IMG/VR virus record: IMGVR_UViG_3300018079_000001
Span: 37,822-101,821 of that record
Reading direction: 5' to 3' (one strand)
DNA: 64,000 nt
DNA from: a virus
Shown here: in pieces, positions 18,638-22,386 of the stretch
Layout of the letters: every line of letters begins with the position of its first letter
Numbering within the stretch: the first letter of the stretch is position 1
Position numbers and translations under genes: made by a program
The notes under the pieces: model-generated
What the model saw: the letters and a program-made list of their open reading frames with translations, nothing else
Told to the model about the DNA's origin: nothing
Database searches by the model: none

Positions 18638-20272
18638 ATGGAACTGCTGAAAGCATTCAAGGCCGCCCGCGTGGCGGCGGTGCCGATTGTCGCCGTGTCG
18701 TGCTTCGACCCGGCCGACGTGATCAAGAAGATTCGCGCGTCGAACGAAGAGGGCGCGAAGACGCCGATCCCGCTTGTGCAGTGGGATGCAATGGACGGAA
18801 TGAAGGGCCTGAACACGGCGGGCAAGGCGGCGGTAGCTGCCGTGCTGAAGGGTGACGAGAAAGACTGGCCGGGCATGACGAGCAACCCAGGTGCCGCGCT
18901 CGGGTTCATGAGCGAGCTACCCGGCGAGCAACGCGAGGGCGGTCGGCCGGACGGTGCCATTCAAATGCGCGGTACGATCGTGTTCGCCCTGAACCTGCAC
19001 AACTACTTCGAGGATCGGCCGAGCAAGGAAAACGCGCCGATCGTGCAGGGCGTGTGGAATCTGCGGGACCGGTTCAAGGCCAACCGGCGCACGCTCGTGG
19101 TGCTCGGGCCTGGCTTCAAATTTCCGGCTGAGATCGCGAATGACGTGATCAGCCTGGACGTGCCGATGCCGACCGACGAGGAACTGACCGCGATCATCGC
19201 CAAGGAAGTTTCGGGTGTCGCGGGCCTCGCTGCGCTGGACGAGAAGACGATGCAGTCCGCCGTTGATGCGGTGCGCGGGCTGCCGAGCGCGTTCACGGTC
19301 GAGCAGGTATCGCGGATGTCCATGACGAAAGAGGGCATCGCGATCGACGAGTTGTGGGAGCGGAAGATCAGTACGATGGAGATGACTTCGGGCCTGAGCG
19401 TGGACCGGGGAACCGAGACGTTCGATGATGCAGGCGGGCTGGACCAGTTTAAGACGTTCGGTCTGCGGCTGGTCAAGAGCGAGAAGTCGCCGCTTCTGTA
19501 CGTGCGCATTGACGAGATCGAGAAGTTTCTCGGTGGACTCGGTGGTGGCGGTAACGCGGGCGACAACACGGGCGTGTCTCAGGATGCGCTCGGGGTGTTC
19601 CTGCGCGAGATGGAAGACAACGGCTGGAATGGCCTGATCGCACTCGGCCATGCCGGCGCGGGAAAGTCGCTGATCACGAAGGGCCTCGCGAATACCGCCT
19701 CGAAGCTGACCGGGCGGCGGGTCCTGAGTGTGGCTCTGGACCTGGGTGCGACGAAGAACAGCCTGCTCGGTAAGAGTGAAGAGAGGTTGCGCACTCTATT
19801 CAAGGTGCTCAAGGCGGTCGGGGGTAAGCGCGTGTGCTTCATCGCCACGTGTAACGACCTGGACGTGATGCCGCCTGCTCTGCGTCGGCGGTTCAAACTC
19901 GGTATGTGGATGTTCGACTTGCCGACCCGCCCGCAGAAAGACGCAATCTGGAAGATCAACCTGACGAAGTTTGGTCTGAAGAAGCCGGCACGGCTGCCGG
20001 ACGATACGGACTGGACTGGCGCAGACATTCGTAACGTGTGTGAGCAGGCCGATCTGCTTGGTTGCTCGCTGGACGAGGCGTGCAACTACGTCGTATTCGT
20101 CGCGAAGAACGACCCGGACAGCATCTCGCGTCTTCGGGCCAAGGCGGACGGGAAGTACCTGGACGCCAACCGGCCTGGTGTGTATCGGGCCGCGCGACAG
20201 GAAGAGCTAGTGCCGAGCCTGGACGCTCCAACGCAGGGGCGAGCCAAGGTGAGCACGGACGAGGAAGTCTAA
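18638..20272 (+). CDS. Ycf46-like AAA ATPase with permuted motif order
   Basis: A 544-aa protein. Residues 1-250 match the inactive N-terminal domain of Ycf46-type ATPases (VPIVAVSCFDPADV; RTLVVLGPGFKFPAE; ISLDVPMPTDEEL). The catalytic domain starts with TFDDAGGLDQ near 261. Its Walker B-type strand LLYVRIDEIEKF (286-297) comes before the Walker A GHAGAGKS (337-344). Sensor 1 (CFIATCND, 400-407) and an arginine-rich LRRRF follow. No Walker B lies between Walker A and sensor 1. The C-terminus ends STDEEV, a member of the shared tail family. Partners downstream resemble DUF2997 and DUF1257. It is likely a remodelling ATPase; the substrate is unknown. Confidence 0.75.
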   Translation: MELLKAFKAARVAAVPIVAVSCFDPADVIKKIRASNEEGAKTPIPLVQWDAMDGMKGLNTAGKAAVAAVLKGDEKDWPGMTSNPGAALGFMSELPGEQREGGRPDGAIQMRGTIVFALNLHNYFEDRPSKENAPIVQGVWNLRDRFKANRRTLVVLGPGFKFPAEIANDVISLDVPMPTDEELTAIIAKEVSGVAGLAALDEKTMQSAVDAVRGLPSAFTVEQVSRMSMTKEGIAIDELWERKISTMEMTSGLSVDRGTETFDDAGGLDQFKTFGLRLVKSEKSPLLYVRIDEIEKFLGGLGGGGNAGDNTGVSQDALGVFLREMEDNGWNGLIALGHAGAGKSLITKGLANTASKLTGRRVLSVALDLGATKNSLLGKSEERLRTLFKVLKAVGGKRVCFIATCNDLDVMPPALRRRFKLGMWMFDLPTRPQKDAIWKINLTKFGLKKPARLPDDTDWTGADIRNVCEQADLLGCSLDEACNYVVFVAKNDPDSISRLRAKADGKYLDANRPGVYRAARQEELVPSLDAPTQGRAKVSTDEEV

Positions 20273-20379: not shown

Positions 20380-20586
20380 ATGGCAGACAGTTTCGAGATT
20401 CAGATTCTCGATGACGGCACGATCAAGAGCACGACGGGTAAGGTTGGCGCGCAGAACCACCAGAGTGCCGAGGGCTTCTTCGGGATGCTGGCCCGCGTGA
20501 TGGGCGGCAAGACGACCCGTAACCGTCGCGGCGAACACGCTCACGTGCACTCGCACGGTGAGGGCGAGCAACACGAGCACGCGTAA
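20380..20586 (+). CDS. DUF2997-like small protein, His-rich tail
   Basis: A 68-aa protein. The N-terminal half (FEIQILDDGTIKSTTGKVG followed by an AEGFFGMLARVMGG helix) resembles DUF2997, a family found beside Ycf46-like ATPases and DUF1257 proteins; similarity is by pattern. The C-terminus is His-rich (HAHVHSHGEGEQHEHA), so it may bind metal. The start was chosen at the ATG with a GGAGGG ribosome binding site. It lies between the AAA ATPase and a 314-aa helical protein. Confidence 0.5.
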   Translation: MADSFEIQILDDGTIKSTTGKVGAQNHQSAEGFFGMLARVMGGKTTRNRRGEHAHVHSHGEGEQHEHA

Positions 20587-21892: not shown

Positions 21893-22066
21893 ATGGCAGT
21901 GAGTGACAAGACAGTCCGGGGCGCGTACGAGATACCGGCCGCGCAGGTTGCGCTACAGCATTACGCGCCGTGGTTCGAGTTGCTGCGAGCGGGCGAGGCT
22001 TTGGTTCAAGGGGGTAAACATTTACTCCGGGCGTTGCGCGCCTGGCGAAAGAGGGAGGGTGTCTGA
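21893..22066 (+). CDS. hypothetical 57-aa protein (paralogue pair, second)
   Basis: It shares its first 14 residues in pattern with the product at 21652 (D-K-T-V-R-G-A-Y-E-I). The rest is a single basic amphipathic helix ending RAWRKREGV. The stop overlaps the next start (TGATG). Confidence 0.6.
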   Translation: MAVSDKTVRGAYEIPAAQVALQHYAPWFELLRAGEALVQGGKHLLRALRAWRKREGV

Positions 22067-22386
22067 TGCCGTGTGATAGCGTCGTCCTGAACACAGTCGA
22101 ATTGGACAAGGTCGGTGACCACGATCTACTCGAAAAGGCTCTGGCTGGAGAATTCGGCACCGTGCGCCGCAACGGTACGACGATGACGTTCACGTACCAG
22201 GGACGCACAGTCACGATCCGCAACGGCCGCGCCGAGTCGAGCCTGAGCGAGAGCACGCTGCAACAATTGGTCGGCCAGGTGAAGCAGGCGTACAGCCGCG
22301 AGGCCGTGCACATGGCGGCGAAGCGGTTCGGGTGGATGATCAAACCCGGCAGGGACAAGAACAACTTCACGGTTGTGAAGAACTAG
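22066..22386 (+). CDS. DUF1257 (Ycf35)-like protein
   Basis: A 106-aa protein. Its C-terminal half (LQQLVGQVKQAYSREAVHMA followed by AKRFGWMIKP) resembles the DUF1257/Ycf35 pattern of a Y-rich helix and a G-[FW] strand. The N-terminal half holds a two-strand unit (TMTFTYQGRTVTIRNG). In other genomes DUF1257 proteins occur with Ycf46-like AAA ATPases and DUF2997 proteins, the set seen here. The assignment is by pattern only. Confidence 0.45.
   Translation: MPCDSVVLNTVELDKVGDHDLLEKALAGEFGTVRRNGTTMTFTYQGRTVTIRNGRAESSLSESTLQQLVGQVKQAYSREAVHMAAKRFGWMIKPGRDKNNFTVVKN

Follow-up and report, generated by a model that had tools for sequence, protein, structure and literature searches.

A Ycf46-type AAA ATPase of a tailed phage in which the Walker B unit precedes the P-loop

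Background

AAA+ domains are among the most studied protein folds, and the order of Walker A followed by Walker B is treated as fixed both in motif searches and in classification. Ycf46-like AAA ATPases of ordinary element order are found in phages, plasmids and bacteria; they include phrog_8638, gp026 of Pseudomonas phage SM1, gp95 of mycobacteriophage Bora, and Planctomycetota proteins (L104 and L106). The two-domain AAA unfoldases p97/Cdc48, Rix7 and NVL combine an AAA catalytic domain carrying a lid with a second AAA-like domain, and both domains have the ordinary order. Circularly permuted GTPases of the YlqF/YjeQ kind are P-loop NTPases whose motif order departs from the norm; their orders are cyclic rotations.

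We describe here P0001, a Ycf46-type AAA ATPase with two domains that is encoded by a tailed phage. The gene lies in the window, the whole stretch of 64,000 nucleotides that was analysed, which comes from a virus record of 101,821 bases (IMGVR_UViG_3300018079_000001). The record contains genes for a DnaB-like helicase and a Toprim primase as well as further helicase, DNA polymerase and terminase genes, and the virus is therefore a tailed phage. P0001 and its close relatives share the two-domain plan, linker, catalytic elements, lid and C-terminal region of the ordinary Ycf46-like proteins, with which they align piecewise, and their genes sit in a similar module with DUF1257, DUF2997 and DUF3150. 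They differ in the position of Walker B: it lies 53-55 aa past the P-loop, which has a standard GK, in the ordinary proteins, and 42-51 aa before it in the transposed ones. P0001 shares the general architecture of p97/Cdc48, Rix7 and NVL but only ~14% identity. Its motif order is as unusual as that of the permuted GTPases; unlike theirs, it is no rotation. The part from sensor 1 to the lid also matches the anti-phage ATPase IteA (NF042959) weakly (E 5e-4; 19 bits against a cut-off of 510).

The preliminary description of this DNA knew of no AAA+ protein with such an order. We found no described transposed AAA+ domain either in the open-access literature, a scope that leaves out most subscription papers; the term 'inverted walker' had only unrelated uses there among the matches listed.

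Element order in the catalytic domain

P0001 consists of a degenerate N-terminal AAA-like domain followed by an AAA domain with catalytic motifs, as in Ycf46-like proteins; the plan is seen in both sequence and model, and activity is inferred. The features typical of AAA proteins are present: Walker A, Walker B, sensor 1, an arginine after sensor 1 (its role inferred) and a C-terminal helical lid (Table 1). Their order is not typical. The open reading frame translation bears out the motif positions first reported: LLYVRIDEIEKF occupies residues 286-297 and is followed by GVSQDALGVFLREMED, the Walker B motif YVRIDEIE spans residues 288-295, and GHAGAGKS stands at 337-344. The helix LGKSEERLRTLFKVLKAVGG then joins the sensor 1 sequence CFIATCND without an intervening Walker B. 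The catalytic domain has the order 3-1-2-4-5, with the beta3-alpha3 unit (residues ~285-329) ahead of the P-loop, and does not meet the linear order beta1-beta2-beta3-beta4-beta5 of AAA ATPases. This domain descends from AAA but is not of canonical order. Circular permutation was considered and rejected, as 3-1-2-4-5 is not a rotation of 1-2-3-4-5 and the cyclic order of elements is not kept.

Table 1. Features of the transposed ATPase gene and of its module in the window
Feature	Position	Strand	Evidence
Transposed-order Ycf46-type AAA ATPase gene (P0001, 544 aa)	18638..20272	+	ORF; 148 transposed homologues; phrog_8638 matched in four parts
Degenerate AAA-like domain at the N-terminus, residues 1-250; elements in ordinary order, P-loop motif absent	18638..19387	+	Unbroken match to ordinary-order profile; strand/helix order of model
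Moved unit, residues ~285-329: beta3 with Walker B, a variable loop, alpha3	19490..19624	+	Profile positions 332-367; sub-profile match
Walker B acidic pair D292-E293	19511..19516	+	Invariant in 82 relatives
beta1-P-loop-alpha1-beta2-alpha2, residues 330-396	19625..19825	+	Profile positions 269-326; model strand 331-337, helix 343-358, strand 363-367, helix 377-395
Walker A GHAGAGKS, residues 337-344	19646..19669	+	G337, G340 and K343 invariant in 82 relatives; Pfam AAA E 2e-7
beta4/sensor 1 strand KRVCFIATCN, residues 397-406, joined directly to alpha2	19826..19855	+	T404 and N406 invariant; profile position 370 onward
Candidate arginine finger R417-R418	19886..19891	+	R418 invariant, R417 at least 90%; role inferred from position after sensor 1
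Helical lid at the C-terminus, residues 431-503	19928..20146	+	Model helices 431-444, 461-474, 478-482, 488-491, 493-503
C-terminal tail QGRAKVSTDEEV, of a type common to other proteins of the same phage	20234..20269	+	Tail comparison
DUF2997-like small protein, His-rich tail, same gene module as ATPase	20380..20586	+	blastp E down to 2e-18 against neighbours of other transposed ATPases
DUF3150-like partner, 314 aa	20624..21568	+	Same family adjoins ATPase in 92 loci
DUF1257/Ycf35-like small protein (tentative)	22066..22386	+	Resembles members (e.g. L001) of a cluster near the ATPase in 29 loci

The homology of each piece was established with a profile built from 20 ordinary-order relatives. 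Native P0001 matches this profile in four pieces that are out of order: residues 6-277 match positions 10-251, residues 290-328 match 332-367, residues 331-394 match 269-326, and residues 398-531 match 370-518. The first of these is one continuous match; the N-terminal half is in ordinary order and serves as an internal control. When residues 285-329 are moved behind residue 396, at the end of alpha2, the protein gives a single match over positions 10-518, and the best domain score rises from 78.9 to 221.7 bits. Restoring the order improved the match in all 115 homologues tested; random moves (300 in each of nine proteins) never reached the restored-order score. The PHROG library behaves in the same way: phrog_8638 aligns without a break to L104 and L106, which have the ordinary order, and matches transposed proteins in three or four pieces (four in P0001). 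A continuous full-length match to the ordinary-order Ycf46-like family is obtained only after the order has been restored. The order of the profile pieces is exactly that expected from the swap proposed at the outset, a transposition of beta3-alpha3 to the front of the domain.

It might be objected that residues 286-297 are an unrelated insertion resembling Walker B, the true Walker B lying elsewhere or being lost in a dead ATPase. Degenerate AAA domains are indeed common, and the N-terminal domain of P0001 is one. We nevertheless judge this highly improbable. A sub-profile of beta3-alpha3 made from ordinary relatives matches the 148 transposed proteins with a median E of 2e-11 (P0001 residues 291-327, E 5e-6), and D292, E293 and K296 are invariant; close homologues thus show the segment to be a homologous, conserved beta3-alpha3 unit whose acidic pair does not vary. 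Nothing downstream of the P-loop offers an alternative Walker B, the presence of which would have overturned the original proposal. Between alpha2 and sensor 1 there is no candidate, and D368 aligns with the ordinary beta2 region, in which an Asp is present in ordinary relatives too.

Distribution and origin of the transposed order

Relatives were gathered from viral contigs, bacterial genome bins, plasmids and cultured phages. Motif searches with loosened regular expressions produced spurious double hits, and the proteins were therefore reclassified with regex-free sub-profiles built from ordinary-order relatives: X (beta1 to alpha2), Y (beta3-alpha3) and Z (beta4 onward). The set comprised 181 distinct proteins no shorter than 400 aa, of which 148 have the order Y-X-Z and 33 the order X-Y-Z; no other order, and no second copy of a piece, was found in this set. 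Motif spacing also falls into two separate groups, the first 116 transposed homologues having Walker B first at the distance given above. Scans with the single proteins P0004 and P0006 yielded nothing new.

The window is metagenomic, and an assembly or frame artefact had to be considered. This is refuted: the same order occurs, in intact reading frames, in independent contigs from many metagenomes, in MAGs and in gp103 of the isolated, cultured phage Tunturi_3. The paper on the Tunturi viruses says nothing of an ATPase in its text. One copy binned as Acidobacteria (L088, JABCZL010000017.1) appears identical to a viral IMG/VR contig of 123,707 bases (L293); at least some of the genome-bin copies are therefore phage sequence.

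The transposed proteins form one clade (SH-aLRT 100) in a tree of full restored sequences, and the clade persists with the same support in a quick tree from which the whole moved region and the P-loop core were omitted. Its sister group comprises ordinary-order proteins from Planctomycetota (L104, L106, L127) and viral contigs (L151, L155, L156). This pattern fits a single change from the ordinary order, apparently one ancient event. The cuts lie in loops at both sites, as a tandem duplication followed by loss of the first X and the second Y would predict. This route is likely but inferred; none of the 181 relatives is an intermediate carrying either piece twice.

Predicted structure and residue couplings

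An AlphaFold2 monomer model was built with 82 relatives (pLDDT 92.6, pTM 0.87). The blocks covering residues 271-290 average 97-98, and block 281-290, next to the start of the strand, averages 97. The C-terminal domain is modelled with five strands and a helical lid; its elements are, in chain order, strand 287-291, helices 294-302 and 313-328, strand 331-337, helix 343-358, strand 363-367, helix 377-395, strand 399-405, helix 413-418 and strand 423-426. In Foldseek searches the nearest PDB folds are p97, Rix7 and NVL, and the nearest viral models in BFVD are phage ycf46 proteins, which supports the Ycf46-type assignment made from the sequence. Foldseek alignments follow chain order, and the rmsd is large.

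Residue couplings were calculated from the 148 transposed proteins. By parallel register, beta3-beta4 is the strongest of ten strand pairs and beta1-beta4 the second, as a strand order of 1-4-3 requires. The top coupled pairs include 287-395, 286-396, 291-401 and 295-344. This is only a modest signal: among random segment pairs, 1.9% score at least as high as beta3-beta4, and the count of top couplings that join the moved unit to the rest of the protein is about chance level.

AAA ATPases assemble into rings and the modelling was confined to monomers, which leaves room for the moved unit to act in trans, domain-swapped into the sheet of a neighbouring subunit. We consider this very improbable. 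In the model alpha3 runs to residue 328 and beta1 begins at 331, which leaves too little linker for swapping; most of the domain is modelled with confidence in the monomer, and the spacing between Walker B and the P-loop is held within narrow bounds across the family.

Conservation and catalysis

Nine residues (D292, E293, K296, G337, G340, K343, T404, N406 and R418) are invariant in the 82 aligned relatives, where mean column identity is 38%. Compared with L001 the gene has a dN of 0.19 and a dS of 0.86; it is under purifying selection.

Catalysis itself is inferred. The fold could be as proposed and yet lack ATP hydrolysis, regulation being by nucleotide binding alone. In 81 of 140 transposed family members A, S or C stands in place of the glycine that precedes the P-loop lysine, commonly as GPPGAAKS, which would suit such a protein; among the matches listed, ordinary-order relatives have glycine there. 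P0001, however, keeps the standard GK, and binding alone does not require the invariant lysine, Walker B glutamate, sensor 1 Asn and arginine that are found. Loss of hydrolysis is thus very improbable.

Gene module and partner proteins

The ATPase sits in a conserved gene module. Its neighbours are DUF3150-like in 92 loci, DUF2997-like in 90 and DUF1257-like in many. All three partners are present in the window, where the DUF2997-like protein is divergent and His-rich and the DUF1257-like one is tentative. A similar module with an ordinary-order ATPase occurs on plasmids, annotated as AAA - DUF1257 - DUF2997 - DUF3150, and cyanobacteria have a DUF2997 - ycf35 - ferredoxin 7 arrangement (PMC4284462). 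No known function was found for the ATPase/DUF module.

A member of the DUF3150-like family (L091) matches PF11348 (E 1.5e-9); the window's DUF3150-like protein gives a confident model, for which the fold search returned no significant PDB match. A search of the virus with the DUF2997 model PF11211 was negative, and the divergent copy was found by blastp. The DUF1257-like protein has no Pfam match.

Many of the DUF2997-like proteins next to transposed ATPases have lost the cysteine of GxGC and acquired a His-rich tail (HAHVHSHGEGEQHEHA in the window's copy); L003, L005, L009, L010 and L012 are such loci. The tail suggests metal binding. A gene for a radical-SAM or 4Fe-4S activase-like protein is found in or near the module at 14 loci (L086 and 13 others), and also in plasmid versions (L148, L149, L150); this hints at an iron-sulphur link of the module.

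C-terminal tails

In at least eight proteins of this phage, whose bodies are otherwise unrelated, the C-terminus is a variant of RAxLxFDEEV; two more end in GRAPRPxDGEEV (ORF ends at 20272, 21568, 22882, 23478, 47744, 48259, 52349, 52825, 53144 and 60439). Across 47 phages, an R-x-hydrophobic pattern is found in 81% of ATPase tails and 94% of DUF3150 tails, against 25% of internal stretches. The tails of the ATPase and DUF3150 proteins are more alike within a phage than between phages (0 of 5000 permutations). They look like a phage-specific C-terminal tag, the function of which is unknown. The ATPase may drive a phage system that has gone unrecognised, with the peptide labelling its components or clients, among them the ATPase itself, its DUF3150 partner and several further proteins of the phage; this is speculative, and we think it unlikely as it stands.

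Proposed fold and mechanism

It is very probable that P0001, which we read as an active AAA ATPase of the Ycf46 kind, has undergone an internal, non-circular transposition of the beta3-alpha3 unit with its fold preserved. The element order, the homology of the individual pieces, their conservation, the single clade and the gene module are established by the data; sheet position, catalysis and ring formation are inferred parts of this reading, without biochemistry. The unit, comprising Walker B, loop and helix, now follows the N-terminal linker in the chain and precedes beta1. Once folded, it most likely occupies, in cis, the position in the sheet that it has in ordinary proteins (strand order 5-1-4-3-2). 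Three connections are joined anew (linker-beta3, alpha3-beta1 and alpha2-beta4); all of them would be at the sheet edge from which the parallel strands start, so that only loops would have been rewired. D292 and E293 are expected to meet K343 and S344 of the P-loop and T404 and N406 of sensor 1 as in other AAA ATPases. R417/R418 may reach the neighbouring subunit, the protein working as a ring. Protein clients might be remodelled together with the DUF3150-, DUF2997- and DUF1257-like partners; both the clients and this role are inferred, and the role is possible rather than probable.

Significance

Annotation tools see only pieces of the transposed proteins, because the order of elements has been rearranged. 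Here a strand-helix unit has been relocated non-circularly inside a catalytic core, with the catalytic residues under strong selection in about 150 proteins. The family is a natural test of how important chain connectivity is for a motor, and its ordinary-order sisters allow the two arrangements to be compared side by side.
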